From the NCBI RefSeq assembly GCF_004212215.1, contig NZ_QVFV01000003.1, forward strand, positions 124,001-188,000: 64,000 nucleotides of DNA. Direction: 5' to 3'. Positions 1 through 54,540 of the stretch are shown piece by piece. A program made the position numbers and the translations under genes. Under the pieces are notes generated by a model. That model saw only the letters and a list, made by a program, of their open reading frames with translations. It was not told the origin of the DNA and ran no database searches. Source of the DNA: Leptolyngbya iicbica LK (GTDB lineage Bacteria > Cyanobacteriota > Cyanobacteriia > Phormidesmidales > Phormidesmidaceae). The first letter of the stretch is position 1. Each line of letters begins with the position of its first letter.

Positions 1-183
1 CAGTTTCTCCATCTACGCACTACGACCTACGAAAAAGCAAAGCAGGTTGCTTCTGGTTTTGACATCTATGCCCTTGAGGCTGATTGGCGGGAGGCCACAA
101 GAAAGAATGGGGTGACGCTTAAAGATCCCGATAGTGCCTTTCTTGCGTGGTGCCGGAAGGTCAAGCAGCGGCAGGTGGCCTAG
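1..183 (+). CDS. RepA-like plasmid replication initiator, C-terminal fragment (5' end outside window)
   Basis: Frame 1 is open from the first base to a TAG at 181-183, giving about 60 residues. The segment FDIYALEADWR followed about 20 residues later by PDSAFLAWCRK resembles the C-terminal end of plasmid RepA-type initiators, which commonly read (W/F)D(V/I)YALExxWR...PDAAFxxFCR. Such proteins bind iterons next to their own gene and recruit DnaA and helicase. The context agrees: a perfect DnaA box starts five bases after the stop and iterons follow at once. The N-terminal DNA-binding domains are not in the window, so the subfamily cannot be fixed. Confidence 0.6.
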   Translation, partial: QFLHLRTTTYEKAKQVASGFDIYALEADWREATRKNGVTLKDPDSAFLAWCRKVKQRQVA

Positions 184-875: not shown

Positions 876-1154
876 CTATGAGTCTTTTAGGTGGTGCTTT
901 TTGTAGGACTCTAAGACTTCGTGCATAAGCGTCTGCGTGGGGACCTTTAGCTTTTGCGCACGCTGCTCAAACCACTGGTAGAGGTCAGGATCAAACGTCA
1001 TCGATTTAAGTTCTTTCGCTCTTCGCTTCGGGGTGATGACATCAGCATCTGCCCAGAAGGCTCGATCTGTACGCGGCGCATCGTCGTCGTACTGAATGTC
1101 TTCATCAGACATCGCTCTAAGACTCTTCAGTCGCTTTTGAGGTTCTTTCGCCAT
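876..1154 (-). CDS. BrnA-like ribbon-helix-helix antitoxin, third gene of a TA operon
   Basis: A protein of 92 residues. The segment SDEDIQYDDDAPRTDRAFW resembles the N-terminal part of BrnA antitoxins, and the C-terminal half (TFDPDLYQWFEQRAQKLKV, then a helical tail) fits a ribbon-helix-helix DNA-binding fold. The ATG overlaps the 3' end of the RelE/ParE-like toxin gene by 28 bp, so the two are translationally linked. BrnA normally follows a BrnT toxin, which is absent; the upstream toxin already has its own antitoxin. It may be a second repressor of the operon or an orphan antitoxin. The family call rests on motif resemblance only. Confidence 0.6.
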   Translation of the reverse strand: MAKEPQKRLKSLRAMSDEDIQYDDDAPRTDRAFWADADVITPKRRAKELKSMTFDPDLYQWFEQRAQKLKVPTQTLMHEVLESYKKHHLKDS

Positions 1155-1432
1155 GATGAAGGGTGTCGATGAAGGTGCATGACTGAAACAACGAGAATCG
1201 TTTCATCTTCGAGGATGGTGTAGATGATGCCGTAGGGAAACCTCCTTAGTCGGCAGCGGCGAATCTCATCTTCTAGTACTTTCCACGCTCTTGGATTAGC
1301 GAGGATCCGCTGAACGGTTTCATCTACTTCATCAAGAAATTCAACACCAAGTTCAGGTCGGTTTGACTCGTAGAACTGCGATGCCTCCTCAACCTCAAGG
1401 AGCGCGGGGGTAAGAAAGCGGTATTTCTTCAC
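1127..1432 (-). CDS. RelE/ParE-family type II toxin
   Basis: A protein of 101 residues. The end of the domain (GIIYTILEDETILVVSVMH, then LHRHP) is the typical beta-strand signature of RelE/ParE toxins, which act as ribosome-dependent mRNA endonucleases or gyrase poisons. An N-terminal helical hairpin (EVEEASQFYESNRPELGVEFLDEVDETVQ) also fits. The ATG overlaps the antitoxin stop by 4 bp (1429-1432), the tight coupling usual for TA pairs. Sequence alone does not separate RelE-like from ParE-like activity. It likely serves to retain the element. Confidence 0.85.
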   Translation of the reverse strand: MKKYRFLTPALLEVEEASQFYESNRPELGVEFLDEVDETVQRILANPRAWKVLEDEIRRCRLRRFPYGIIYTILEDETILVVSVMHLHRHPSSWRKNLKSD

Positions 1433-1656
1433 TGAGAGAGCTTTTCCCTAAGCTCAGTCAGTGCGATTTCGCCGTCAACCGCGTCGATGTCTCCAGCGTG
1501 GAAGGCTTTTAATCGGTCTTTTGATTCTTCCAGCCAGGCGCGATCAATTTCCTCCTGTGCCGCCGGGTCAAGGCTTTCAAGAAGGGCATCAATGAGCTGG
1601 GCTCTCTCAAACGGTGAGAGCTTTAGGGCTTCTTCTTTGAGGAGAATGCTATCCAT
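1429..1656 (-). CDS. Antitoxin of the addiction-module component family
   Basis: A protein of 75 residues. LSPFERAQLIDALLESLD is the hallmark of the short antitoxins described as putative addiction module component (TIGR02574-like), which pair with RelE/ParE toxins. It is the first gene of a minus-strand operon antitoxin-toxin-BrnA-like. A short acidic, helical protein of this size would wrap the toxin and probably autoregulate the promoter. No operator was identified upstream of 1656. Confidence 0.85.
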   Translation of the reverse strand: MDSILLKEEALKLSPFERAQLIDALLESLDPAAQEEIDRAWLEESKDRLKAFHAGDIDAVDGEIALTELREKLSQ

Positions 1657-1689: not shown

Positions 1690-2355
1690 CTACTCTTTTG
1701 ACCTTCTCAGAATGCTTGGTCTCTCAGAGGCTGGAAGTCTTATCTGCGGAGATGAGCATTGATTCCTGGCAGTTACGTACTGTTCCTTGGATGGGGTAAG
1801 GAGTGTGACGCGAGGAAGTCCTGCCCGTTTTCTACGTCTATTTACCTGGCACAGAAGCTTTCGTTTTTGCGCCACCACCCCAGGGAAGTTGTAGAAGGGG
1901 AGGGTCTGAATCCGTCGTTCAACTTCTTCATGGGGACGTAGCTCTTTGCGTCTTATCAGTCGTTTTACACGACGCCAGACTCGGCGAGTCACCTGGATGT
2001 GTACTGTCTTCCCGCGAAGGCCTACTGAGTAGGCGCCAAGGTGGAGCGGAGTATCGCGGATGTCGTAGCTCCTCAGTTTCTCGAAAGTCTCGTGGTGACC
2101 CTCGGTGACGAGCAGGACGAAGGTGTGGTGCCAGCGAAGGTATTGCGCGATCGCTTGGCCTTGTCTTCTACGTCTTGTCCGCGTTGTTCGGCACGAGGTG
2201 ATTGAGTAAGTGCGGCGAAGCTTCTCATCGATCGCGAGTAAGTCTTTGCCTTCAGGAATTTCTCGCACCGCGTAGCGGTAGTAGCCGTAGCGAACGTAGT
2301 CAAAGGCGATTCGTCGCAGGAAGTCACCAAACGATCGCGGGATAGGGGAGACCAT
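1690..2355 (-). CDS. Arg-rich protein of unknown function
   Basis: A protein of 221 residues that I do not recognise. It is strongly basic, with clusters such as RTRRRRQGQ (about residue 58) and RRVWRRVKRLIRRKELRP (about 125-142), suggesting nucleic-acid binding. A clear Shine-Dalgarno (AGGAG) lies seven bases before the ATG on the minus strand, supporting this start. It stands alone between the TA operon and a minus-strand terminator at 2384-2419, so it needs its own promoter in the 28 bp between them or read-through. The position near the origin suggests a plasmid replication or maintenance role, but that is a guess. Confidence 0.6.
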   Translation of the reverse strand: MVSPIPRSFGDFLRRIAFDYVRYGYYRYAVREIPEGKDLLAIDEKLRRTYSITSCRTTRTRRRRQGQAIAQYLRWHHTFVLLVTEGHHETFEKLRSYDIRDTPLHLGAYSVGLRGKTVHIQVTRRVWRRVKRLIRRKELRPHEEVERRIQTLPFYNFPGVVAQKRKLLCQVNRRRKRAGLPRVTLLTPSKEQYVTARNQCSSPQIRLPASERPSILRRSKE

Positions 2356-2383
2356 GGGAGAACTCCTATTTGTTTTTCCTCAG

Positions 2384-2419
2384 AGTCAAAAAGGGACTGG
2401 TTGATAGGCTCAACCAGTC
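2384..2419 (-). terminator. Intrinsic terminator, minus strand
   Basis: A perfect 10-bp stem (GACTGGTTGA at 2395-2404 with TCAACCAGTC at 2410-2419, 5-base loop) is followed on the minus strand by CCCTTTTTGAC. It would end transcripts coming from above 2420, that is, from the side of the candidate structured RNA. The span 2420-2744 upstream of it holds no convincing gene, only a hairpin at 2575-2603 (GTTTTAG/CTAAAAC arms). Confidence 0.75.
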
Positions 2420-2744
2420 GAAAGCCGTTTTTCGATCCATCAGCACCGAGCTTTGACAGGAGCCGCACGCAGAACGCTCATCCTGCGGGCTACGCAGAAA
2501 GCGTTGGCGCGAGCTGTCTCCGTGCTCACGTTGCCGCCGGAACCACTCTCCAATAAGCTGCAACGTTCGTTGTCGTTTTAGAGGGTTACTTAAACCCTAA
2601 AACTTCGACTGTTATATGAAGAACCGGTTCGCGGCCTCGGATGCTGTCTTTCGTTGGTTGTTAGTGAGCTGTCTTATCGTTTGGTTTCGTCATCGAAACT
2701 CCTCCACGCTTACTAGATGTTGTTAGTGTTCAAAGACTGTGCTG

Positions 2745-3760
2745 ATTTACGAATGCCCCGTGTTTCAGAGGCATTCGTAAACCCATGACAATGAAGGGAT
2801 GACTACGTCATCGGTGTGAATTCCGTCGGAGCTTTCCTTGTCGGTTTGAGATGTACCGGTTACCAGCCGGTACCCGAATATGGATTGGACTGCCCAGCCC
2901 GCTCCACACGGCTTCTTCGAGTAGAAGCCCTTGTAGTTGCTCCACGCTCCCAGACCACCGCGTTTTGATCACCTCGTCATTACCCGACAAGGCACCGGCT
3001 TACCACGTCCGGCGGCGATGGTCCTTCCCCGATTAGTCGTCACGGTTGGAATTGAAAGTCTTGTCGCTAGGTGATTGCTATCACCAGGAGCTGCAGGCCG
3101 AGGGGTATCCCCTTTTCAATTTTCAGATTTCAGAAGGCAGAGAGCAGGAGCTCCTTCTTACTGACTTGCAGTCTTTTCGCACTCAGGCACAACTCTTTCA
3201 CTCCTTACCAGCAAGCGGTTTCCCGCCGTTCATCGTTGAGCTTTTCGCGTTGGCTGTATTGCAGCCATACCCGAGGATGTCATACCCCGGTCGCCACGGT
3301 TACCCGTGTGCGAACTCCCGACGCTGGCAGAGGTTACACGCCATGGATGGCTCTTTAGGCTATGTCCCCTCTGACGGATTTTCACCGTTTCCGTGATGAC
3401 GGCCAGGTCTCTTACTTTCAAAGAGACTTTTGGTCTGTCTCGGTCGCCCACTCTCTAGTGCGCTTTCGAGGTTACTGCTATGGGATAGAAGTAAGGGATT
3501 ACTCTTTATCGGCTTATTTTCTAGGAAAATCGGCCAAAATAAAGGATTACGTCTTACAGCCTCCCTCGTGCTGGACAAACGACTCTCATCGTATCCAGCG
3601 CTACGGATAACAGCACAATGCGTTCATGGTAATTTGAACGCGCCCCTTAGCCAGGATGGTAAGTCGCTGGTTTACCGGGGTGTGCCGTCACACCAATTAC
3701 GTAGCGGTCACCTTCGCCATGTTGGACGATTGGGGTGACACAGCCTTATGGAGGGAAGGG
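2745..3760 (-). ncRNA. Candidate large structured non-coding RNA
   Basis: About 1 kb without a credible ORF but packed with perfect inverted repeats: 2747-2758/2771-2782 (12 bp), 2799-2804/2808-2813, 2854-2859/2867-2872, 2910-2916/2923-2929, 3070-3075/3080-3085, 3215-3218/3223-3226, 3252-3256/3262-3266, 3295-3299/3304-3308, 3407-3412/3422-3427 and 3479-independent 3-prime partner 3679-3684 region (stem near 3679-3684/3689-3694). Read on the minus strand, two loops are GNRA tetraloops (GAAA closed by GCGG/CCGC at 3215-3226; GTAA closed by CACGG/CCGTG at 3295-3308); on the plus strand they are not, which favours minus-strand transcription. Size, density and mobile-element setting recall the large ornate RNAs GOLLD and ROOL, but I cannot match a consensus. 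Limits are approximate. A decayed group II intron is an alternative, though no intron-type domain V or encoded reverse transcriptase is visible. Confidence 0.45.
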
Positions 3761-4222
3761 TAATCTCAAGCTTTAAGTTGGTTGAAGTAAGAATCTGTGT
3801 TGGTTGTTGAAGTTACGGGAATTTCAATCGGTAGGGGAAATTTCTGTGCGTCAGGCAGCCGCGATCGGTGAGGTTGAAAAGGGCGGGAATACCCGTGATG
3901 GAAAAAGACAGCTCACAGGTATTCCCTGTGAAACCATTAGTAACTAACCGAGCAAAGCGTAGCAGGGAGAGTTACTGCTGCCAATAAGGAAATTTGTTTC
4001 GCTCTAGAAGCTTCGCCACAATTAACTGCTTGTAGATTCTCTAAGAAGCACCACAAAGAGTAGCTATAGAGATTTTTTTGAAGGTGATTTTTTTAGGTAG
4101 TTGAGGGAGGATAAAGAGTCTTTTGCATGAGTCTTCTCACCACAAAAAACTATACCCCGGGCGCGTGCAAAAGCAGAGGCGGCACCGGGGCTTACACTAA
4201 TAAGATACAGCGACAGAATTAG
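3761..4222. other. Gene-free spacer with further hairpins
   Basis: There is no ORF. Short hairpins occur at about 3886-3897 (CGGG/CCCG with loop AATA) and 3914-3930 (CACAGG/CCTGTG). Their arms also complement each other (GGGAATACC versus GGTATTCCC). Outer arms GGCAG near 3856 and CTGCC near 3980 could close the block. It may be the 5' part of the structured RNA or a separate small RNA. Two runs of seven Ts lie at 4073-4095. Nothing else was recognised. Confidence 0.4.
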
Positions 4223-4864
4223 GTGTTCAAGAAATTTTTATACTCACCTGAAATCCTTAGTTCTTTAGAAAAGACCCTGTCGACTCCTCGTCTCTCTACT
4301 TATAGAGGTGTTGTCGGTGGCGATGACGGTAAGGCGTTAGCGCTTTATGGTTGGAATACGGCAGTTTCGGCAGCACTTTATGTGCCGCTACAGGGGTTAG
4401 AGGTATCGCTTCGAAACACAGTAGCGGAGCAACTTACCGTGTTCAAAGGGGCAAATTGGTTTAATCAATTACCGCTCCGATCCGTAGAACACCAACAGAT
4501 AGCTGCTGCCCAGGCTGAACTTGCTAATCGAGGTCGTCCTTGTACGGCCTCTCGGCTCATTGCGGAGTTGTCCTTTGGGTTTTGGGTGGCACTGCTAGGA
4601 AAGTCGTACACACATTCACTCTGGATTCCCGCACTTAGAAAAGGTTTTGAGGCAAAGCTTGATAGACGACGCCTCTACGAGAAGCTTGACCATCTGCGGC
4701 GGCTTCGTAATCGCATTGCCCATCATGAGCCGATATTTCGAAGAGACTTACACGCTGACCATGCGAGTATTCTCACAGTCGTGGGGTGGATATGTTGCGA
4801 TACGAGACGGTGGCTTGAGCACCAGAGTGAGGTACTCGCTCTCCTTTCTGAGAAGCCTTGTTAG
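4223..4864 (+). CDS. Abi-like HEPN-domain protein
   Basis: A protein of 213 residues with a GTG start. The segment RLRNRIAHHEPIF (about residue 160-172) is the R-N-x(3-4)-H motif of HEPN domains as found in Abi-like proteins. HEPN proteins with this motif are typically RNases used in abortive infection or TA systems. The remainder is helical with conserved-looking aromatic segments (LYVPLQGLEVSLRNTVAEQL; ELSFGFWVALLG), also typical of Abi_2-like proteins. It is a single gene that converges tail-to-tail, 6 bp apart, with the toxin/immunity operon. No partner nucleotidyltransferase or antitoxin is adjacent, so it may act alone. Confidence 0.75.
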   Translation: MFKKFLYSPEILSSLEKTLSTPRLSTYRGVVGGDDGKALALYGWNTAVSAALYVPLQGLEVSLRNTVAEQLTVFKGANWFNQLPLRSVEHQQIAAAQAELANRGRPCTASRLIAELSFGFWVALLGKSYTHSLWIPALRKGFEAKLDRRRLYEKLDHLRRLRNRIAHHEPIFRRDLHADHASILTVVGWICCDTRRWLEHQSEVLALLSEKPC

Positions 4865-15767: not shown

Positions 15768-16166
15768 ATGATGGTCGAATCAATCGATCACTACGCATCT
15801 AACACAGGAAGTGGGAGCGCGGCGAAGACTCTTACGCTTTCGCTCAAACTGCTCTCGCCATATGCCGATCGCCTTCAGCAGGCAGCAGAGTTGGCTGATA
15901 TTTCAAATACCAAAATGGCGCAGAGGCTAGTGGTGCATGGGCTAGAGCATCCTGACCAAGAAGCGCTCCTGCAAAATATTGATTCTCTGACAGCAGAAAT
16001 TATTGATTTGCGCCATGAGTATCAAAAACTCCAGGTTGAAATAGAAGGGCTAAGAGTCGCCACCTATCTCACGACCGAGTTGCTGCTCGTGTTAATTGGT
16101 GATCTAAGCCCAGAAGAAGCCCACCAGGTCATGCAAGAAGTGCTTGCTGAAGGGGATGGGGAGTGA
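15768..16166 (+). CDS. Relaxosome accessory protein (putative)
   Basis: A protein of 132 residues from the ATG at 15768; an upstream ATG at 15696 is possible but would place the palindromes inside the gene. The segment LTLSLKLLSPYADRLQQAAELADIS fits a DNA-binding helical module, followed by a coiled coil (DSLTAEIIDLRHEYQKLQVEIEGLR) and an acidic tail. The stop overlaps the alternative GTG of the relaxase gene, so they are coupled. TrwA/MobC-like accessory factors occupy this place in MobF operons. Family membership is inferred from position and architecture. Confidence 0.55.
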   Translation: MMVESIDHYASNTGSGSAAKTLTLSLKLLSPYADRLQQAAELADISNTKMAQRLVVHGLEHPDQEALLQNIDSLTAEIIDLRHEYQKLQVEIEGLRVATYLTTELLLVLIGDLSPEEAHQVMQEVLAEGDGE

Positions 16167-16240
16167 TGATTGAAGCCTGGTTTCTATTTGGTTCTGGAAA
16201 TAATCCTTTCATCGCGTTCTTTCTGGTCGGCATCGCCAGT

Positions 16241-17992
16241 ATGAGAGTCATCGGGGATGGGAGTGGATACATGGCGTATCTGACGAACGCTCCGGAGCAT
16301 TACTACACCTTGGGAGCTGAAGAAGGTGAGGATGCGATCCTAGATGCGAGGAAAGTTGGCACCTGGCTGGGTCTAGGGGCAAAGCGGCTTGGCATCGAGC
16401 GCCAAGCGATCGTCAGAGGAGACGTCACTGCTGAAGCGCTTTTTCACGGCGCTCATCCAGTAACTGGCGAGCTATTACGAAAAGGGGCACACACCACCGT
16501 TGAGTATCGCGATCCTCGCACGGGGGAGATGAAGATACGAAAATCGCGGGCAGGCTTCGATATTGTCCTTTCAGGTGACAAAAGCATCGATGTGTTGTTT
16601 GCGCTGGGGCCGACCTCGGTAAGGCGCAAAATTATCATTGCCTATGACCGAGCGACAGACGAGATCGTCAAATATCTCAACCGGGAGATTGGCTACACCC
16701 GAACTGGTGCTGGCGGCAAGGGGCCAACGGAGAAGATGGACCTGATCTATGGCAAGTTCCTCCATTTCACCAACAGGCTGTCTGAGCCCAAGGTTCACGT
16801 CCATCTATTTACCTTTAATACGGGACTACGAGAGGACGGTAGTGGTGGCACGCTCGATTCTGAACGAGTTCTCAAGGGCAACTTCAAATTTGAGATTGGG
16901 CAGCGGTTTCGTAACGCCTTAGCACGCCATTTTTGTCAGGAGTTTAGAGAGTACGGCCTTACCCTGGACCCATACCAAATTAAGAATGGCACAGGCTACC
17001 GGGTAAGAGGGGTGCCTCAAGCGCTGTGTGATGACTTTAGTACGCGCCACTTTGATATTCAAAAACGGATTGAGGGAAAAGACTTAACCTCAGGTCGGCG
17101 ACACGCCGAAGTCCTTAAATCACGCCCCGAGAAGCCAAAATTCATCAATCTACGTGACCTGCACCAGGAGTGGGCCAAAGTTGGCCAGAAGCATGAGTTT
17201 GATGCCAAGGCATTTTTCGAGGAATCACGTAAACAGCACCAAACGCGAATTAACTACGAAGTGCTGGTTTCAATCATTCAGGACCAGGCATCGGGTGATA
17301 CGGTATGGGGCGCTACGTTTGCTGCATTGGAAGCGGAAACCCTACCTGAGGTCAACGCAGCTCGGGAAGTCCGAAAGTTAGTTCGTATTGGTGACAATCC
17401 CTTCAAGCACGAGGAGCCTGATTCCAAGAAAGTCAGGAGAGACTATTTCGCTGGGAGAGCGGATTCTGGCGCGGTCGAGACAGCACGCGAGCTGAAGGTG
17501 AAGCAGTGGTGGCGACAAGGTTGGCAGCGACGATCGCCAGAGGAGCACATTGCAGCATTAAGCGACCAGCTCGCCTCTGCGATCGAGCAATCGAAAAAGC
17601 GAAACCAGTGGTTTAAGGTCAAATTCGTTGGCCTCTACCTGACTGGGGCAATCAGCTTTAAGACCTACAGCAAGTACATGCACGGAAAGGGGTTGCCGAG
17701 AACGCTCTTGGGGATTGAGTGGCAGTACTGGACTGGCGGGATCAAGCAGAGCCAACGGATCGTGCTTCGGGTTGCGCACGGCTATGAGGCCCCAACGTTT
17801 GGGGTTCCAAAGTCACGTCTTGCCATTAATTTCGCGAGAGCGATCAACCAAATTACTGAGACGCAACGGCTGTTGCTGCTGAAGAAGGTTGAACAGCGTA
17901 AACAGCATCAACGCAAGCAGAGTATTGCGCGGATACGGAAGCGTCTTGAGCGGGGTCGGTTCTTTACGAGGGAACAGGGTCATGAAAGGTAG
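16241..17992 (+). CDS. MobF (TrwC-like) relaxase lacking the helicase domain
   Basis: A protein of about 583 residues from the ATG at 16241; a GTG at 16163 overlapping the previous stop and an ATG at 16271 with a GGGAG are alternatives. I chose 16241 because GDGSGYMAYLTNAPEHYYT aligns with the MobF N-terminus, where the YY pair supplies the nicking tyrosines. SGDKSIDVLFAL matches the MobF motif SxxKSVSxLxAL, and VHVHLFTFN gives the metal-binding His cluster (about residue 190). MobF relaxases usually continue into a RecD-like helicase; none is present here, so unwinding must come from elsewhere. It cuts and pilots the strand during transfer. Confidence 0.85.
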   Translation: MRVIGDGSGYMAYLTNAPEHYYTLGAEEGEDAILDARKVGTWLGLGAKRLGIERQAIVRGDVTAEALFHGAHPVTGELLRKGAHTTVEYRDPRTGEMKIRKSRAGFDIVLSGDKSIDVLFALGPTSVRRKIIIAYDRATDEIVKYLNREIGYTRTGAGGKGPTEKMDLIYGKFLHFTNRLSEPKVHVHLFTFNTGLREDGSGGTLDSERVLKGNFKFEIGQRFRNALARHFCQEFREYGLTLDPYQIKNGTGYRVRGVPQALCDDFSTRHFDIQKRIEGKDLTSGRRHAEVLKSRPEKPKFINLRDLHQEWAKVGQKHEFDAKAFFEESRKQHQTRINYEVLVSIIQDQASGDTVWGATFAALEAETLPEVNAAREVRKLVRIGDNPFKHEEPDSKKVRRDYFAGRADSGAVETARELKVKQWWRQGWQRRSPEEHIAALSDQLASAIEQSKKRNQWFKVKFVGLYLTGAISFKTYSKYMHGKGLPRTLLGIEWQYWTGGIKQSQRIVLRVAHGYEAPTFGVPKSRLAINFARAINQITETQRLLLLKKVEQRKQHQRKQSIARIRKRLERGRFFTREQGHER

Positions 17993-18728
17993 AAAGAATC
18001 GCAGTCTGCCGGTTGGAGTGCAGGCTGTCTTAACAGTGATGCATTGGTTGTGGAGGGCTTTTCAGATCCTCGATGCAGTGGTGGTTCGCCTGTTGCGGGG
18101 GGTAATCAGGACTGTCTACTTACCGTTAGCGATCGCCGTGTGTTCGGTGGGAGCCTATTTGTTTGCCGATAGGCTTGCCCCATACCTGGTGGATCTTACG
18201 ATCGGCAGTTTTCTTGAAGGGGTCAGTCTCAGCGTTTGGGAGCGAGTTTGCCGCTGGTCACTGGCGATTACCTTCGCTGGGGTGGGGTGGATTGGCTACA
18301 AGCGACATCAAGAACTCTCAAAGCTTCGATCGCAGCACGAATTTACCTTTGGCCGATATCGAGAACTCTTTGCCACGCCAGGCAGCCGCATCACCGATTT
18401 TCTGTGGGCCTACTTGGTGGCCACCTTACAGGTGAATGTCCCAGTGGGCCTAATGATCTTCATCATCTTTGTCGCGCCGTTTCTGATTACTGAGAACTGG
18501 CTATTTCGTTTCTTCCTGGTCTTTTTTCTGATGAGCGGTATGGGGACTTTTCTCAACGCAGGAGCAGCGGTGTTGATGGAGACGTTTCGGCCACGGCGAT
18601 TGGAAGCAGAGGTACAGGGTGCAGGCCAAATAAAAGATGAGCTTGAAAAGCAGTATCAGCAGTATCTCGCTGAGAAGGAGACGCGCGAAAGAGCTAATGA
18701 TTCGGAGCTTAGAAACAATGATTGGTAG
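17982..18728 (+). CDS. Multi-pass membrane protein of the mobilisation operon
   Basis: A protein of 248 residues from the ATG at 17982 (GAGGGA just upstream), overlapping the relaxase gene by 11 bp. Hydrophobic segments: VYLPLAIAVCSVGAYLFA, WSLAITFAGVGWIGY, VGLMIFIIFVAPFLI and FRFFLVFFLMSGMGTFL. The C-terminus is a charged helix (ELEKQYQQYLAEKETRERAN). It overlaps the coupling-protein gene as well, so relaxase, membrane protein and coupling protein are translationally linked. It may anchor the coupling protein, whose own membrane segments are absent. Confidence 0.7.
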   Translation: MKGRKNRSLPVGVQAVLTVMHWLWRAFQILDAVVVRLLRGVIRTVYLPLAIAVCSVGAYLFADRLAPYLVDLTIGSFLEGVSLSVWERVCRWSLAITFAGVGWIGYKRHQELSKLRSQHEFTFGRYRELFATPGSRITDFLWAYLVATLQVNVPVGLMIFIIFVAPFLITENWLFRFFLVFFLMSGMGTFLNAGAAVLMETFRPRRLEAEVQGAGQIKDELEKQYQQYLAEKETRERANDSELRNNDW

Positions 18729-20349
18729 ATTCCGACCGACACCGGGAGAGGCGGCGAGGCGATCGCTGCATCAAAGGCGTGAGATATCAGAAAGCGATCA
18801 CAGGGTGGGCTCATATGGGAGAGGACCGCTAATCTCTCTGGCTGGGCATCGAGTCGGGCTCGATAGCTTAGACCACACCATGTATATGGCGACTAGTGGA
18901 TCGGGGAAAAACCTGCTTGCAGGGCCGATGATCCGATCGATGGTGGAAACGTGTACTGATGACCCGACCCGGCGGATGCTGATTGTTGAAGCGAAGGGGC
19001 AGATCACTCAGGCTCTTGAGGGAATGGGGGCGAAGTATGACCTAATTACCCTGTCATCGAAACATGGGTACTCACCTGATTTTGCCAAGGATTTTGATAC
19101 CTACACACGACAGGTGCAGCTTGCCTACAACTTGGTGCCAAGGCTAGACGGCAATAACGCCTTTTTTAGGAATGGTGCGAGGGGACTTCTGGTTGCCGGG
19201 GCGGTATCGATTCACCAGATTACTGGTGGGGAGTGGGGAGTTGATGACCTCGTTAATTTCTCGACAGAAGGGCAAAAGATTGTTCAGGCCATTCTGAAAC
19301 GAACAAAGATTGGGCGGCGATTTCTTAGAATCCTTGACAGCACCCGTGATGCAACGACGCTCTATAAGCTCCGTACTGAGCTGTTTACCCATATGGAGCC
19401 ATTGATGACGGCTGCTGCTAAGTATCAGGTGTCAGATGCGCTTAGTGTGATCGATTTTTGGGAGGGAAAAACTGAAGCGCCAATTCTAGTTATTAAGGTC
19501 AATCCTGAACATCTTGATGCGGAGCGGGCAGCCGTCTCGGCACTGTTACAGCGGTCGTTTGAGCACATTATGTCGCTCACTCCGCCGGTAGACCCGAGAG
19601 ATCTGCGGAAAGATAAGCTAATCCTGCTCGATGACGCGGGCTTCTACCGCCGTATCCCCAAGTTCCTTGAGGCGACAGAGCTTATCAGAGGCAACGGTGG
19701 GCTGCTGATAGCGCTTAACCAGAGTGTGGAGAGTTTGCGCAGTCGGACTTCATATGGAGATGAGGCCGATGGATTGCTCGCGAACTTCCCCAACCTAGTG
19801 ATGTTGCTCAGTGCCTCACCGATCACGGCGAAGTGGTTTTCGAGCCGGTTCGGGCAGATCGAACGGGTGAGGCTGTCGTTAAGTAGGAGTTTCGGCAAAG
19901 AGGGGGTGCAGTGGAGAGCGGATGAGCGCCGGTCGGTTGAGAATCTGGTCTTCGATCGAGAGTTCCTCAATATGACGCCACCTTCTCCAGAGAGTGGGGT
20001 GACCTGTTATCTCAAAACCCAAGCCTTTGGGGAAGAACTGAAGAAAGTCATCCCATGGGAGCAGATTATCGAGCGCACTCCTCCGACAGCGTATGTCGAT
20101 TTTTCACCGTTACCGTCATCACTCCAGGAGCCTGCTGACTGGGATATGGCGCGGCTTGAGTTTCTCTGTCTTGGGAAGCGGCTAGAAGATGAGGTTGAAA
20201 GTCAAGTGAGCAGTTCGTTTGGGAGCTCTTTAGATGAGTTTGAAACAGCGCTTCGGCGCATTGTGTTTGACATTGGCTTCGACATGATTGAGCGCCTGGT
20301 GGACCCCGAAACGGGGCAAGTGTCAGGCACGAGCGGAAGTAAGTCCTAA
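18697..20349 (+). CDS. VirD4/TraD-type coupling protein (T4CP)
   Basis: A protein of 550 residues from the ATG at 18697; ATG 18718 is also possible. P-loop ATSGSGKNLL (about residue 64-73) and Walker B LILLDDAG (about 310) with a following arginine-rich segment are typical of VirD4/TraG/TraD ATPases. The motif LIVEAKGQIT matches the conserved strand after Walker A. T4CPs bring the relaxase-DNA complex to the secretion channel. The N-terminal transmembrane pair of classic VirD4 is missing; the separate membrane protein encoded just upstream could supply it. No VirB genes follow. Confidence 0.8.
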   Translation: MIRSLETMIGRFRPTPGEAARRSLHQRREISESDHRVGSYGRGPLISLAGHRVGLDSLDHTMYMATSGSGKNLLAGPMIRSMVETCTDDPTRRMLIVEAKGQITQALEGMGAKYDLITLSSKHGYSPDFAKDFDTYTRQVQLAYNLVPRLDGNNAFFRNGARGLLVAGAVSIHQITGGEWGVDDLVNFSTEGQKIVQAILKRTKIGRRFLRILDSTRDATTLYKLRTELFTHMEPLMTAAAKYQVSDALSVIDFWEGKTEAPILVIKVNPEHLDAERAAVSALLQRSFEHIMSLTPPVDPRDLRKDKLILLDDAGFYRRIPKFLEATELIRGNGGLLIALNQSVESLRSRTSYGDEADGLLANFPNLVMLLSASPITAKWFSSRFGQIERVRLSLSRSFGKEGVQWRADERRSVENLVFDREFLNMTPPSPESGVTCYLKTQAFGEELKKVIPWEQIIERTPPTAYVDFSPLPSSLQEPADWDMARLEFLCLGKRLEDEVESQVSSSFGSSLDEFETALRRIVFDIGFDMIERLVDPETGQVSGTSGSKS

Positions 20350-25373: not shown

Positions 25374-26879
25374 ATGACGATGGCACAGATGACGCAGCAG
25401 GACATTAATGGTGTGGTTTGGAGGGCGTGCGACACCTTCCGAGGCACGATCGACCCGGCCCAGTACAAAGACTACATCCTGGTGATGCTCTTCCTGAAGT
25501 ATCTGACCGATCTCAGGAATGACAAGCGGGAGGAATATCGCAAGAAATACAAAGGAGACGAAACCCGTGTGGAACGGGCGATGAGCCGGGAGCGGTTTGT
25601 GCTGCCTGAAAAGGCTGACTTTGACTATCTCTATGACAACCGCGAAAGCAAGCGCGGCGAAAAGTCGATCGGGGAGCTAATTGATGAAGCCTTAGCCGCG
25701 ATTGAAGATGCCAACAAGGAAAAACTGGACGGCGTGTTTCGGAACATTAGCTTCAACAGCGAGGCTAATTTTGGCGAGACTAAGGAACGGAATACTCGAT
25801 TGCAGCATCTGCTGGAGGACTTCCACGACCTAGATTTACGTCCATCCCAAATTGGCAACCGAGATGTGATCGGGGATGCCTACGAATATCTGATTGGTCA
25901 GTTTGCAGCGGATAGCGGCAAGAAAGGCGGGGAGTTCTACACGCCACCGGAGGTGTCTACGCTGCTGGCTCGGATTGTGGCTCCGAAATCTGGAGACCGC
26001 ATCTATGACCCGTGTTGTGGGTCAGGCTCTCTGCTGATTCGGGCAGCCAAAGAGGTGCCGGATGGCAACGTAGCGCTGTTTGGTCAGGAGATGAATGCTG
26101 GAACCTGGGCGCTCTGCCGGATGAACATGTTTCTGCACGGGTTCGATGGGGCAGAGATTGAGCGCGGGGATACGATTCGGAATCCTAAGCGAATCAAGGA
26201 TGATGCTCTGGAGAAGTTCAATGTGGTTGTTGCTAATCCACCATTCTCGCTCGATAAGTGGGGCGCGGATAAAGCTGCTAATGATCCGTGGCAGCGGTTT
26301 CTACGCGGAGTGCCGCCAAAGGGAAGAGGGGACTTTGCTTTCATCCTACACATGATTGCTTCAATGACAGCTACGGATGGTCGGATCGGGGTAGTCGTGC
26401 CGCATGGTGTGCTATTTCGTGGTGGCTCGGAAGGTAAGATACGTCGAAAATTGATTGAGGAGAACTTGCTGGAAGGTGTGGTTGGCCTACCTGCCAACTT
26501 ATTTTTTGGAACAGGGATACCAGCAGTATTATTGTTTTTTAATCGCGCAAAGAAAGATAAAAAAGTCTTCTTTATTGATGCTGGTCAAGAGTTTGAGGAA
26601 GGAAAAAACCAAAATCGATTGCGCGGCCAGGATATCGAGAAAATTATCGAGACCTGGAATGCCCGAAAGAGTGTTGAAAAATACAGCCTTTTGGTCTCTC
26701 CAGAAGAAATCGAAGAGAATGACTTCAACCTCAATATATCACTCTACGTTGATACGTTTGAGGAGGAAGAAGAAATCGATATTGGAGCGGTTCAAGGAGA
26801 AATTGTTCAATTAGAAGTCACACTTGAAAATACGCGCAAAGAACTGGCTTTAGCTCTAGAAGGCTTAGGAATCAGATGA
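25374..26879 (+). CDS. hsdM: Type I restriction-modification DNA methyltransferase subunit HsdM
   Basis: A protein of 501 residues, the usual size. AQMTQQDINGVVWRACDTFRG opens the N-terminal HsdM domain; YDPCCGSGSLLIRA is AdoMet motif I and VVANPPFSLDKWG is the catalytic NPPF motif for adenine-N6 methylation. The start has a strong GGAGGGAGG. The stop overlaps hsdS by 4 bp. Together with S it methylates the host's sites; with R it forms the restriction complex. Confidence 0.95.
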   Translation: MTMAQMTQQDINGVVWRACDTFRGTIDPAQYKDYILVMLFLKYLTDLRNDKREEYRKKYKGDETRVERAMSRERFVLPEKADFDYLYDNRESKRGEKSIGELIDEALAAIEDANKEKLDGVFRNISFNSEANFGETKERNTRLQHLLEDFHDLDLRPSQIGNRDVIGDAYEYLIGQFAADSGKKGGEFYTPPEVSTLLARIVAPKSGDRIYDPCCGSGSLLIRAAKEVPDGNVALFGQEMNAGTWALCRMNMFLHGFDGAEIERGDTIRNPKRIKDDALEKFNVVVANPPFSLDKWGADKAANDPWQRFLRGVPPKGRGDFAFILHMIASMTATDGRIGVVVPHGVLFRGGSEGKIRRKLIEENLLEGVVGLPANLFFGTGIPAVLLFFNRAKKDKKVFFIDAGQEFEEGKNQNRLRGQDIEKIIETWNARKSVEKYSLLVSPEEIEENDFNLNISLYVDTFEEEEEIDIGAVQGEIVQLEVTLENTRKELALALEGLGIR

Positions 26880-28126
26880 TCGAAGAGTGGGAACTGATGC
26901 AGATACGCGATTGGGGAACGGTGGATGCTGGGCGTCAGCGTTCATTTAAGATCACAGCAGGAACGATGCGCCCCTATCTACGTGTTGCCAATGTTTTTGA
27001 TGGATTTATTGATACATCCGATGTATTGCAGATGCCTTTTTCGAATAAAGAGTTTGAGAAATATAAGCTGATTCCTGGAGACATATTACTCAATGAAGGA
27101 CAGAGTTTAGAGCTCATTGGTCGATCTTCTATTTATCAGGGAGATCCTCCAGACTGTGCTTTCCAGAACACGCTTGTGCGATTTAGACCAGGCCCCAAAT
27201 GTGACGTGGAGTTTGCCCATTTGCTGTTTCAGCATCTGCAATACACTGGCAAGCTATCTGCAGTCGCTAAACAGACTACATCCATTGCACATTTAGGAGT
27301 TAATCGATTCGCTGACTTATGGATTAAGGTTCCTAATATTGAGGAGCAACGAAGGATTTCTAACATTCTCATTAAATGGAATAGAGCGATCGCCCTCACC
27401 GAAAAACTTATCGCAGTCAAGCGCCGCCTCAAACAAGGGCTGATGCAACAGCTTCTCACAGGTAAGCGGCGATTCCTAGGGTTTGAAAATGATGGATCAA
27501 AACAGGAAATTCAGATAGGAGAAGTGCCCTCTGATTGGAAGGCTGTGAAGATCGGCAAAGTTGCACATGAAATATCTGAACGTGCTGCGCCAGAAGGAAC
27601 ACCAGTTTTATCATGTACAAAATATGACGGACTCGTTTCTTCATTAGAGTATTTCGGAAGGCAGGTATTCGGAAATAACCTGGACAACTACAAAGTTGTA
27701 AAGCGTAAGCAATTTGCCTACGCAACAAATCATATTGAGGAAGGCTCAATCGGCCTACTGCGTGACTTTGATGTTGGGCTGGTAAGCCCTATGTATACCG
27801 TTTTCGGGTTGACCACCGAAATGGTCGATCCAGAGTTCCTATTCGCGGTTCTGAAAACCGAGACGTACCGCCGCCTATTTGAGGCGCTCACCTCTGCTTC
27901 CGTGAACCGTAGAGGCAGCTTACGGTGGCCTGTTTTCTCAAAGATTGTTGTAGCTATCCCATCGTTACCGGAGCAGCAAAAGATCATGTCAGTTCTTAAG
28001 GCTGTTGACCGAGAAGTCGAGCTTCTGGAGGAGCAACTTCGGCTGCTGAAACTTCAGAAGCGCGGACTCATGCAGAAACTCCTGACCGGCGATATCCGAA
28101 TTCCCATACTTGATGATGCAGCATGA
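26876..28126 (+). CDS. hsdS: Type I specificity subunit HsdS, two recognition domains
   Basis: A protein of 416 residues with two repeated halves. The central conserved helix is VPNIEEQRRISNILIKWNRAIALTEKLIAVKRRLKQGLMQQLLTG and the distal one IPSLPEQQKIMSVLKAVDREVELLEEQLRLLKLQKRGLMQKLLTG (positions about 155-200 and 362-406). Each TRD precedes its helix. The site will be bipartite, but its bases cannot be read from sequence. Overlaps hsdM and hsdR by 4 bp each. Confidence 0.95.
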   Translation: MIEEWELMQIRDWGTVDAGRQRSFKITAGTMRPYLRVANVFDGFIDTSDVLQMPFSNKEFEKYKLIPGDILLNEGQSLELIGRSSIYQGDPPDCAFQNTLVRFRPGPKCDVEFAHLLFQHLQYTGKLSAVAKQTTSIAHLGVNRFADLWIKVPNIEEQRRISNILIKWNRAIALTEKLIAVKRRLKQGLMQQLLTGKRRFLGFENDGSKQEIQIGEVPSDWKAVKIGKVAHEISERAAPEGTPVLSCTKYDGLVSSLEYFGRQVFGNNLDNYKVVKRKQFAYATNHIEEGSIGLLRDFDVGLVSPMYTVFGLTTEMVDPEFLFAVLKTETYRRLFEALTSASVNRRGSLRWPVFSKIVVAIPSLPEQQKIMSVLKAVDREVELLEEQLRLLKLQKRGLMQKLLTGDIRIPILDDAA

Positions 28127-31100
28127 TTTCTTCCCCCTCCTTCATTCCCGAAACTACTCCTCCATTCACCGAGGATGACGTTTCCAAAATCCCTGCTGTA
28201 GCCCTGCTGATGAAGCTTGGCTATCAATACCTGCTGCCTAAAGAAACCCTAGAGTTGCGAGGAGGACGGCGCTCCAGCGTCATTCTGTTTGGTGTACTAG
28301 AGCAGCAGCTACGGAAAATGAACCGGATTCAGTTCCGGGGGGAGGATGTTCCGTTTACTGAAGGCAACATTGCCGAAGCGATCCGCGTGCTGCGGGATAT
28401 GGATGATGATGGACTGGTTCGTACAAACGAGAAACTCTGGGACCTGTTGAGGCTAGGGAAAGCCTTGCCTCAGACCATCCAGGGCGATACCAAGAGCTTT
28501 ACCCTGCACTATATCGACTGGGAGCGCCCGGAAAATAACGTCTACCACGTCACCGATGAGTTTGTCGTGGAGGCCAGCGGCACCACCGATACCCGCCGCC
28601 CCGACATCGTGCTGTTTGTGAACGGCATTCCCTTCAGCGTGATTGAGTGTAAGCGCCCTGGTTTACCCGCTGGACAAGACCCGATTGAAGAGGCTATCAG
28701 CCAACAGCTTCGCAACCAGCGCGATTCAGAGATTCCCCGGCTGTTTCACTATGCCCAACTGCTGCTCGCCCTGGCCATGAATGAGGCTAGCTACGGGGCC
28801 ACCGGCACTCCGATGAAATTCTGGTCAATCTGGAAAGAACGGGAACTTGATGAAGCCACCCTGGAGCGGACTGTTAATCAGCCCTTGGGGGCTGAGTTTC
28901 TGTCCCACTTCTTCACGTCCGATCAGCATCGCTTCAAGGGGACCACGCCAGAGCAAGCGCGGGAATGGTTTGAAACACTTCAAGCGGTGGGACGCTCTGT
29001 GACCGCCCAAGATCTTGCTCTCTATGCCCTCTGCCGCCCGAAACGGTTATTGGAGCTGGCTGACAGCTTCACCGTCTTTGATGCGGGTGAGCGGAAGATT
29101 GCCCGGTACCAGCAATACTTCTGTGTCAAACGCATCATGGAACGTATCCACAAGTTTGACTCGAATGGCTCTCGTAAAGGGGGAGTGGTTTGGCATACCC
29201 AGGGCAGTGGTAAGTCAATCACGATGGTGCTCTTGGCCGAGGCAATCGCCCGTGATCCGGTGATTAAAGATCCGAAGATTGTTCTGGTGACTGACCGGGT
29301 TGATTTGGACGATCAGATTTACCGCACCTTCGATCACTGTGGTTTGGAGCTGGTGCAGGCCAAAACCGGCAGACAATTGCGAGACCTATTAGAAGACCCT
29401 AAAGCTCGAATTATCACCACTCTGATCAATAAATTCCTGGCCAGCCGGGACGATCACAACGACGACCCTAATGTATTTGTGCTGATTGATGAAAGCCACC
29501 GGACTCAGTTCGGTACTTTGCATGTGGCCATGCGTCGGGCACTACCGAAAGCTTGTCTGATTGGCTTTACCGGGACGCCTATTCTCAAGAAAGAGAAGAA
29601 TACCGTAGCCCAGTTCGGGGGACTGATTGACACCTACACCATTGGTGAGGCGGTTCCAGATGGTGCGGTGGTGCCCTTGCTCTATGAAGGTCGCCATGTG
29701 CCCCAGGACGTTGACCGCAAGCAGATTGACCTGTGGTTTAAGCGGTACACGGCTGGGCTGACCGACCAGCAACGAGCGGATCTGAAGAAGAAGTTCTCTA
29801 CGGCAGAACAGCTCAACCAGACTGAGCAAAAGATTCGCGCGATCGCCTGGGATATCAGCTACCACTATTCAACGGAGTGGCAGGGGACAGGCTTCAAGGC
29901 TCAGCTAGTGACGCCATCCAAAGCGGCTGCATTGCTCTATAAACGCTTCTTAGATGAGTTTGGCTTGGTATCCAGCGAAGTGCTGATTTCCCCGCCGGAT
30001 ACCCGCGAGGGTAATACCGAAGTCAGTGAACTGCGAGACAGCACCCAACGGCCCAAAATCCAGGAGTTCTGGGAAAAATTGATGGAGCGGCATGGCGCTG
30101 AGGATAAGTACCAGAAAGACCTGATCAACCGCTTTAAGCACGGCGATGAACCGGAAATCATCATCGTGGTGGACAAGCTGCTGACTGGGTTCGATGCACC
30201 CCGGAATACGGTTCTCTACCTGACTCGCTCCTTGAAAGATCACCGGTTGCTTCAGGCGATCGCCCGTGTGAATCGGTTGTTCGATGGTAAAGACTTTGGC
30301 TATATCATCGACTACTACGGTGTCTTAAAGCGCCTGGGAGAAGCCCTCGACCTCTATGGCTCAATGGAGGAGGAGTTTGAAGAAGGAACCTTGGACGGCA
30401 TTCTAACGGATGTTTCCGAAGAGTGGCGGAAACTAGAGCAGCGGCATAGCGATGTTTGGGAGGTGTTCCAGGGAGTTCCAAACAAGCAGGATATGAATGC
30501 CTTGCTAACTCCACTGGCTGATGAGGAGTTACGTTCTAAGTTCTACGAGCGCCTGTCTCTGTTTGCCCGTACCCTCAAGATCGCACTGGCCAGCCTGGAG
30601 TTCTATGACCATACGTCAGATAAGAAGATTAAGCGATACAAGGCAGACCTGAAGTTCTTTGCGAATCTGAGAGCTGCCGCCGCACGCCTGTATGCAGAGC
30701 GGGTTGACTTTAAGCAGTACCAGGAATCGATTCAGAAACTCCTAGATACCCATGTTGGAACGGATGAGATTGAGACTGTAGTTGAGCCGGTCAATATCTT
30801 CGATAAGGAAGCCTTCCAAGCCGAAGTGGATGCTCAGGACTCCTCTGTCACGAAAGCGGAGATGATTGCCAACCGTACCAAACGTTCGATCACCGAGCGC
30901 TTAGAAGAAGACCCAGCCTTCTATATTCCGTTTTCTAAGATGCTCGATGACATCATCAAGAGCATCCGAGAGCAGCGCTTCGATGATGCCGATTCCTTGC
31001 TGAGAAGTGTCGAGGATATTCGGGATAAGGTTCGCGATCGTACAGGTGATGAGGTGCCGGAGCGTTTACGCGATCATGACGTAGCGAAAGCCTACTATGG

Positions 31101-31458
31101 CGTGGTGCAGGAGAACCTGGCTGGCATTAGTTCAATCTATCTACATCCAGATATTACGGAATTAGCCAGTGACTCTCATCAGGTTAAAGAATCTAGCGGT
31201 CAATATAAAACGCCTAGATCAGCAAAAGAGCCGTTGCAAGAGCTCAGCGCTGATATTGCTCTAAGCATTGAATCTATTGTGAATGAGCATCGTATGGTGA
31301 ATTGGATTCAGAACGTGGATACCCAGAATCGGATGAAAACCGCGATCGAGGATATGCTCTTTGACCTCCAGGACGAGTACGATTTTGAACTCGACTTCGA
31401 CACCATCGATATCATCCTGGAAAAATGCATTGATATAGCGCGGGTGCGGGTGCCATGA
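28123..31458 (+). CDS. hsdR: Type I restriction endonuclease subunit HsdR
   Basis: A protein of 1111 residues. Nuclease motif: RPDIVLFVNGIPFSVIECKRPG (D and ExK, about residue 162-183). Translocase: HTQGSGKSITMVLLAEA (Walker A, about 352-368), FVLIDESHRTQFG (DEAH-like DESH, about 450), and later superfamily 2 motifs DKLLTGFDAPRNTVLYL and LLQAIARVNR. It cuts unmethylated DNA after ATP-driven translocation. The long helical C-terminus contacts M2S. Intact, with no frameshift. Confidence 0.95.
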   Translation: MISSPSFIPETTPPFTEDDVSKIPAVALLMKLGYQYLLPKETLELRGGRRSSVILFGVLEQQLRKMNRIQFRGEDVPFTEGNIAEAIRVLRDMDDDGLVRTNEKLWDLLRLGKALPQTIQGDTKSFTLHYIDWERPENNVYHVTDEFVVEASGTTDTRRPDIVLFVNGIPFSVIECKRPGLPAGQDPIEEAISQQLRNQRDSEIPRLFHYAQLLLALAMNEASYGATGTPMKFWSIWKERELDEATLERTVNQPLGAEFLSHFFTSDQHRFKGTTPEQAREWFETLQAVGRSVTAQDLALYALCRPKRLLELADSFTVFDAGERKIARYQQYFCVKRIMERIHKFDSNGSRKGGVVWHTQGSGKSITMVLLAEAIARDPVIKDPKIVLVTDRVDLDDQIYRTFDHCGLELVQAKTGRQLRDLLEDPKARIITTLINKFLASRDDHNDDPNVFVLIDESHRTQFGTLHVAMRRALPKACLIGFTGTPILKKEKNTVAQFGGLIDTYTIGEAVPDGAVVPLLYEGRHVPQDVDRKQIDLWFKRYTAGLTDQQRADLKKKFSTAEQLNQTEQKIRAIAWDISYHYSTEWQGTGFKAQLVTPSKAAALLYKRFLDEFGLVSSEVLISPPDTREGNTEVSELRDSTQRPKIQEFWEKLMERHGAEDKYQKDLINRFKHGDEPEIIIVVDKLLTGFDAPRNTVLYLTRSLKDHRLLQAIARVNRLFDGKDFGYIIDYYGVLKRLGEALDLYGSMEEEFEEGTLDGILTDVSEEWRKLEQRHSDVWEVFQGVPNKQDMNALLTPLADEELRSKFYERLSLFARTLKIALASLEFYDHTSDKKIKRYKADLKFFANLRAAAARLYAERVDFKQYQESIQKLLDTHVGTDEIETVVEPVNIFDKEAFQAEVDAQDSSVTKAEMIANRTKRSITERLEEDPAFYIPFSKMLDDIIKSIREQRFDDADSLLRSVEDIRDKVRDRTGDEVPERLRDHDVAKAYYGVVQENLAGISSIYLHPDITELASDSHQVKESSGQYKTPRSAKEPLQELSADIALSIESIVNEHRMVNWIQNVDTQNRMKTAIEDMLFDLQDEYDFELDFDTIDIILEKCIDIARVRVP

Positions 31459-54191: not shown

Positions 54192-54540
54192 CCTGTATGA
54201 CAACGGTGTAACCGCTGAGTGATAATTTCTCGCACACGCATGAAATTATTCAAGTGAAGTTCATTGCATCCGTATAATCCCTGGGAACCATTAACTTTTT
54301 CTCGTGAAATTTACGGAGACCATTATTTTTTTGAATTTCCGGTAAAGCAGATGTTAGAGAAACTGTTCATCCATACCTAATTGTGTTGCTGGCTGCCAAA
54401 TGCTTAAGTTTGATACCGGGAGAAGATCACAGATCTTATTCAAGGTTTAGTCACCGAATTCCTAAAGCCAATCTGTCATGCAGAGAAACGCCAAGAATCA
54501 CCTCAACGAACCTGCATGAACTGTCGCCTGTGAGACTCGC

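Follow-up and report, generated by a model that had tools for sequence, protein, structure and literature searches.

A predicted minus-strand circularly permuted group II ribozyme beside an acpG homolog on a cyanobacterial plasmid-like replicon

In the literature searched, circularly permuted (CP) group II ribozymes, also called "T-large" RNA, are known from one 2021 study (Roth et al. 2021, iScience; PMC8637638). The main text of that study describes RNAs in which domains 5 and 6 (D5-D6) lie upstream of domain 1 (D1), and in which a 3′ motif (NU) and a 5′ motif (GGGCG) bound a segment of 15 to 86 nt that is excised as a circle. Five members formed branched RNA and the circularized intervening segment in vitro, and in one case sequencing established both the D6 adenosine branch and the exact positions of the junctions (PMC8637638). 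Features given for the class include a P2-D2 loop-loop pseudoknot that is unique to it, a D5 triad of AGC with an unpaired A and a UN bulge, and a protein, AcpG, reported beside the RNAs (PMC8637638). The hosts named in the main text are Thermus, Firmicutes, Proteobacteria, and a hot-spring metagenome; the word "cyanobacteria" is absent from that text, and the supplement may hold a cyanobacterial entry.

We analyzed a 64,000-nt stretch of a Leptolyngbya iicbica LK contig, referred to here as the window. It very probably carries, on its minus strand, a CP group II ribozyme beside the usual partner gene of the class, acpG, on a plasmid-like cyanobacterial replicon. The locus is a further member of this rare and recently described class and not a new class. 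An earlier, sequence-only reading had marked positions 2745 to 3760 as a candidate large ornate RNA, and its boundaries needed little correction: in an alignment of 8 homologs the whole element spans 2744 to 3743 (minus strand, ends approximate), starting at about 3743 and ending somewhere between 2822 and 2744. Read on the minus strand, the domain order is P2-D5-D6-3′ splice site-circle-5′ splice site-D1-D2-D3-3′ hairpin. D5-D6 (3601 to 3480) lies 5′ of D1 (start at 3449; EBS1 at 3145 to 3139) on the same strand, and a group II 3′ domain upstream of D1 sequence is the hallmark of the CP class. As in other members, there is no internal open reading frame (ORF), and acpG is nearby. With Rfam 15 at the gathering threshold, a tRNA was the sole match in the 64-kb window, and the ribozyme block had none. 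A relaxed search matched the group II domain V/VI family (RF00029) at 3603 to 3480 on the minus strand (33.7 bits; E = 2.4e-4). A good group II intron match had been proposed as evidence against a large ornate RNA, and it was obtained only in part: domain V/VI is recognizable, but its score is below the family cut-off of 40 bits and the domain order is permuted.

Inverted repeats are dense at the place marked by the earlier reading, with 25 pairs between 2300 and 4250, including perfect 12-bp arms. The minus strand folded at -394 kcal/mol, whereas its dinucleotide shuffles averaged -324 kcal/mol (SD, 7.5; z = -9.4), and the plus strand was likewise below its shuffles (z = -10.1); because both strands fold far below shuffles, the strand call had to come from homologs. 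The consensus fold of 8 aligned sequences reached -180.4 kcal/mol on the minus strand but -119.2 kcal/mol on the plus strand (reverse complement), and 40 column-shuffled alignments averaged -45.9 kcal/mol (SD, 5.2), placing the minus-strand consensus at a z of -25.8. The proposal of a large, ornate noncoding RNA on the minus strand is thereby borne out, with the strand signal coming from the alignment and not from single-sequence folding. Covariation in homologs, which had been suggested as a check, was plentiful, with compensatory double changes in 98 of 171 consensus pairs (8 homologs). Four of the eight aligned copies are close relatives (the Nodosilinea group), so counting sequences exaggerates the number of independent changes; the lineages separate enough to matter number five.

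A 3′ terminal hairpin (UUUACGAAUGCC/GGCAUUCGUAAA; 2746 to 2782, minus strand) has perfect 12-bp arms (2746 to 2757 and 2770 to 2781) and is retained only in the closest relative, L003. The minus-strand terminator pattern noted earlier is real: between the ribozyme and acpG, an intrinsic-terminator-like hairpin (2395 to 2419, minus strand) has a 10-bp stem (arms 2395 to 2404 and 2410 to 2419) and a T-rich tail, CCTTTTTGAC. A second terminator-like hairpin lies just upstream of the ribozyme on the minus strand, at 3912 to 3932. A simple promoter scan found no sigma-70-like promoter at the locus.

The splice layout predicted for the window is CCCAU, then 30 nt, then GGGCG, as in described members of the class. 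The NU and GGGCG motifs bound a predicted 30-nt circle, AGCAGUAACCUCGAAAGCGCACUAGAGAGU (3450 to 3479, minus strand; the joined "exons"), which ends in IBS1 (3456 to 3450). Applied to Polaromonas naphthalenivorans pPNAP05, the same rule gave 32 nt, which is the published length (PMC8637638); relatives gave 15 to 31 nt, and Leptolyngbya gave 12 nt, slightly below the published range. The predicted 5′ splice site, GGGCG (at 3449), and the start of D1 (GGGCGACCGAGACAG; 3435 to 3449, minus strand) form the most conserved stretch measured, with 91% mean identity in 8 homologs. The EBS1 hairpin, GAAGG-AGCUCCUGCUCUCUG-CCUUC (3133 to 3157, minus strand), presents EBS1, GCUCUCU (3145 to 3139), which pairs at 7/7 positions with the last seven circle bases, AGAGAGU (IBS1). 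This pairing is better than in the relatives, and at least 5 contiguous pairs were present in each of 5 lineages. Own-lineage EBS1-IBS1 pairing totaled 28 over five lineages whose sequences differ, unmatched by any other of the 120 permutations, a result that is supportive rather than blind because the register was chosen by eye from the conserved loop frame. With IBS1 left aside, the circle is less conserved than any other segment measured, at 22% identity between the window and L003 versus 57 to 100% elsewhere; across all eight copies the identity is 29%, over a short variable stretch of uncertain alignment.

The pseudoknot peculiar to the class has a clear counterpart. The P2 hairpin, GCGUUCA-AAUUACCA-UGAACGC (3620 to 3641, minus strand), has the loop UUACCA (3632 to 3627), and a D2-like hairpin, CCGG-ACGUGGUAAG-CCGG (2995 to 3012, minus strand), has the complementary loop UGGUAA (3005 to 3000), giving 6 bp in the window and 5 to 6 bp in each of 5 elements compared. 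The pairing covaries across lineages, and four of the 5 elements differ in loop sequence: AGCCA/UGGCU in Nodosilinea, UAGCUA/UAGCUA in Calothrix, and a UGCCA/UGGCA core in pPNAP05. Each P2 loop forms 5 to 6 bp with its own partner and at most 4 with that of another lineage, except between the window and L003, which have a common D2 loop. When the pairing was sought in the Leptolyngbya copy, no clear counterpart was found.

The two ends of the RNA are joined by a helix between UCCGU, before D5 (3603 to 3607, minus strand), and ACGGA, after the D3 base motif (2822 to 2826, minus strand). Compensatory changes were seen in 3 of its 5 pairs (alignment columns 147 to 151 with 1052 to 1056), and the two sides vary in concert (GUCGU/ACGAC in Leptolyngbya, CCCUU/GAGGG in Calothrix, and ACGGU/ACCGU in pPNAP05); the Nodosilinea copies keep 4 of the 5 pairs in the form tested. 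This helix unites the RNA ends at the place where an ordinary intron has domain 4, between D3 and D5, and the permutation appears to have broken the intron open at the loop in which the protein gene usually sits.

D5 (3568 to 3601, minus strand), located by the subthreshold RF00029 match and by covariation, has a CGC triad (3600 to 3598) with its first base unpaired (a C-A opposition), a UU bulge, and a GAGA tetraloop (3587 to 3584); the triad in the Nodosilinea copies is AGC. That tetraloop is one of the GNRA loops that the earlier reading had placed on the minus strand. In the consensus structure, D6 (3480 to 3565, minus strand) ends in CUAUCCCAU at the predicted 3′ splice site and contains a bulged adenosine, A3486, which is the predicted branch point; this base has no partner there and is the same in all 8 copies. 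A conserved D1 core motif, GAAAAGCUCAACGAUG (3231 to 3246, minus strand), was found in the alignment and also read in pPNAP05, with GAAWAGCUCAA present in all copies. The D3 base carries an E-loop-like motif, GGAAAGCUCCGACGG (2823 to 2837, minus strand), of which GAAAGC..GA is conserved in 7 of the 8 aligned copies; pTT8 and pPNAP05 have a similar ACCGAAAGCCUGGACCG. A δ-δ′ pairing, judged by eye, fits only some copies.

A covariance model built from six cyanobacterial sequences only recovered the published pPNAP05 element (E = 1.6e-7). With filters off, it also found an element beside an AcpG gene in Sulfuriferula (E = 3.8e-13) and AcpG-adjacent elements in Azotobacter, Paraburkholderia, and an E. 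coli plasmid, while the pTT8 element was matched more weakly (E = 0.0029), at the expected site. Compared with the RNAs of Roth et al., the window element has the same domain order, NU and GGGCG motifs, branch adenosine, EBS1-IBS1 pairing, and P2-D2 pseudoknot, the same lack of an internal ORF, a similar length (~900 to 1,000 nt), a plasmid location near a replication origin, and an adjacent acpG; it differs in its cyanobacterial host and in having a CGC rather than an AGC triad. With canonical group II introns it shares the D5/D6 fold, the bulged branch adenosine, and the D1 exon-binding loop, but its domains are permuted, its splice sites are internal and in reverse order, and it has no intron-encoded reverse transcriptase. 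A canonical group II intron was rejected as the identity of the block: the D1-to-D6 order with outer splice sites is absent, and the Rfam score is below the cut-off. A covariance model spanning D5 to the 5′ splice site would be easily built, and annotation pipelines could then stop leaving such loci blank.

Several other explanations of the block were weighed. ORFs of 72 to 116 amino acids overlap it, as they might in a decayed protein-coding gene, but relative to the nearest relative (80% identical), 13 of 14 indels are not multiples of three, and substitutions have no codon phase (68/61/57). The earlier statement that the block contains no credible ORF is thus upheld, and with the strong compensatory base changes added, gene decay, which had been listed as a possible refutation, is ruled out for practical purposes. 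An RNA of a new large ornate class, or a divergent GOLLD or ROOL, had been suggested by the sequence-only reading; size, structure density, and plasmid location are indeed similar, GOLLD and ROOL being large structured RNAs of mobile elements. We now give this suggestion almost no credence, since GOLLD, ROOL, OLE, and HEARO had no match at the gathering threshold in the 64 kb or at E values up to 5 in 2300 to 4250, no sequence or structure match to these families appeared at any threshold tried, and the landmarks of CP group II RNAs are present. Remnants of two ordinary group II introns lying side by side, a D5-D6 tail and then a D1 head, would also place a group II 3′ domain before a 5′ domain, and the Rfam match is to the ordinary family. 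Such a coincidence is very improbable: the same order recurs in 8 cyanobacterial loci, in pPNAP05, and in pTT8, the pseudoknot found only in CP RNAs is present, the last bases of the intervening 30 nt match EBS1 of the D1 that follows, and the genome has no reverse transcriptase or other domain V.

The remaining explanation accepts the anatomy but not the activity. The C opposite A at the first triad position is what might be seen in a CP group II element that has inherited its architecture and lost splicing, but some canonical group II introns also have a CGC triad. Moreover, every pairing tested is kept through compensatory change, EBS1 and IBS1 match better in the window than in its relatives, and acpG has an open frame and is found with the RNA in every one of the 8 cases, so we consider loss of activity unlikely and retain the reading of the block as a CP group II ribozyme.

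The next gene on the ribozyme strand (1693 to 2355, minus strand; 221 amino acids, with AGGAG in front) is predicted to encode a diverged AcpG homolog. Its product matched a hidden Markov model (HMM) of 7 proteobacterial AcpG proteins at 41 bits (hmmsearch), and hhalign aligned a profile of three cyanobacterial homologs with the proteobacterial AcpG profile at 97.4% probability (E = 1.5e-11) over ~170 residues. Compared directly with the Thermus set by itself, the profile matched weakly (46% probability), and BLAST to Thermus TTHC007 was not significant (E = 46; best cyanobacterial homolog, E = 0.07), so the proteobacterial profiles were needed. Like members of the TTHC007 family, the gene adjoins a CP group II RNA and its product matches the proteobacterial members by profile, but the protein is shorter (221 versus about 260 amino acids) and has diverged beyond the reach of BLAST with the Thermus protein. 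Its AlphaFold model was poor (mean pLDDT, 49.9). An AcpG homolog was present in all 7 of the other RNA-bearing genomes or records, near the RNA in the loci read, and among 386 sampled cyanobacteria both an AcpG homolog and a strong RNA match were confined to the window's own genome. An AcpG homolog is also carried by E. coli plasmids of about 28 to 35 kb; the one read has a CP group II-like D5-D6 at 2084 to 2205 (minus strand) and acpG at 2498 to 3190 of the extracted locus, L056.

A full-length relative, 80% identical, is present in another cyanobacterium, and the host belongs to the same family as one of the Nodosilinea genomes. A nucleotide search of plasmids returned only plasmid5 of Calothrix sp. 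NIES-4101, and the copy on Leptolyngbya boryana pLBX was reached via the neighboring protein. Calothrix plasmid5 carries two CP elements ~2.1 kb apart (846 to 1300 and 2878 to 3812 of the extracted locus, L005); the first seems truncated within D1, and acpG follows the second only. An exact-pattern scan of one genome per species (84,980 prokaryote species) hit five contigs, each from a cyanobacterium (Calothrix, filamentous cyanobacterium CCT1, Phormidium tenue FACHB-1052, Nodosilinea sp. LEGE 06152, and Nodosilinea nodulosa PCC 7104), which is no measure of the reach of the class because the pattern was drawn from cyanobacterial copies. A search of phage records and viral contigs gave no match. 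Weak covariance-model matches in 14 other cyanobacteria (22 to 43 bits) were set aside, those read being the ends of ordinary group II introns (GAGCCG..., ...CTACCCGAC) and not CP elements.

Three aspects of the locus are new. The host phylum, Cyanobacteriota, lies beyond the hosts named in the main text of Roth et al., to which cyanobacteria can now be added. The host genome (99.99% complete) has the ribozyme in single copy, and a search of it found neither an RVT_1 reverse transcriptase nor a further group II domain V, making it a CP host genome without a reverse transcriptase or another group II intron. The circle is the least conserved segment of the ribozyme. RVT_1 was absent from 3 of the 6 CP-bearing cyanobacterial genomes searched (the window's and two of the five others), so a resident group II reverse transcriptase or maturase is not required; such hosts narrow the possible roles of the class.

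By homology to the members tested in vitro, a mechanism can be proposed for the window RNA. D5 would dock into D1 while the P2 and D2 loops kiss. The 2′-OH of A3486 would then attack the 5′ splice site (U3450/G3449), guided by EBS1-IBS1, and the freed 3′-OH of U3450 would attack the 3′ splice site (U3480/A3479). The predicted products are a 30-nt circle (3479 to 3450) and a branched, T-shaped RNA whose D5-D6 and D1-D3 arms are tied together. Since the circle is least conserved while its guide pairing covaries, its sequence is disfavored as the effector. The circle sequence is free to drift, whereas the ribozyme and the EBS1-IBS1 match are kept; on that basis we tentatively suggest that the useful product is the branched, possibly still catalytic RNA (or splicing itself), serving the plasmid with the help of AcpG, a role that is possible but has less than even chances; AcpG might aid the folding or action of the branched RNA, and the plasmid would gain. 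A bolder and doubtful version is that the CP RNA and AcpG form a two-part plasmid system independent of reverse transcriptase, in which back-splicing discards an arbitrary circle and frees EBS1, IBS1-like RNA or DNA becomes the in-trans target of the T-shaped branched ribozyme, and AcpG is a dedicated cofactor, for plasmid maintenance or competition.

The mobile-replicon setting implied by the earlier reading was recovered. An RPA-type replication initiator (PF10134; 2.7e-64) lies just outside the window start and ends at window position 180 to 183, followed by iteron-like repeats at 209 to 864 (core CTATTACCCGCA, listed 5 times in the repeat table), together a predicted plasmid origin. A ParA-like ORF, named from its sequence only, is nearby, and a TrwC relaxase and, after it, a TrwB/TraG-like coupling protein are encoded at 16163 to 20349. 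Given the initiator, iterons, ParA-like ORF, relaxase, and coupling protein, the 451,727-bp contig is most likely a mobilizable plasmid. The CP element of pPNAP05 was published as near the plasmid origin (PMC8637638), and the location of the window ribozyme fits this. The window also contains a toxin-antitoxin-like cassette beside acpG (879 to 1656, minus strand), with a ParE-family toxin (PF05016), an Unstab_antitox protein (PF09720), and a weakly matching BrnA-like antitoxin. A complete type I restriction-modification operon (HsdM, HsdS, and HsdR; 25374 to 31458) is followed by a KAP P-loop NTPase (32205 to 34193), and a 3,641-amino-acid ORF (43278 to 54203, minus strand) over imperfect 63-nt and 49-nt repeats perhaps encodes a YD/RHS-repeat protein.
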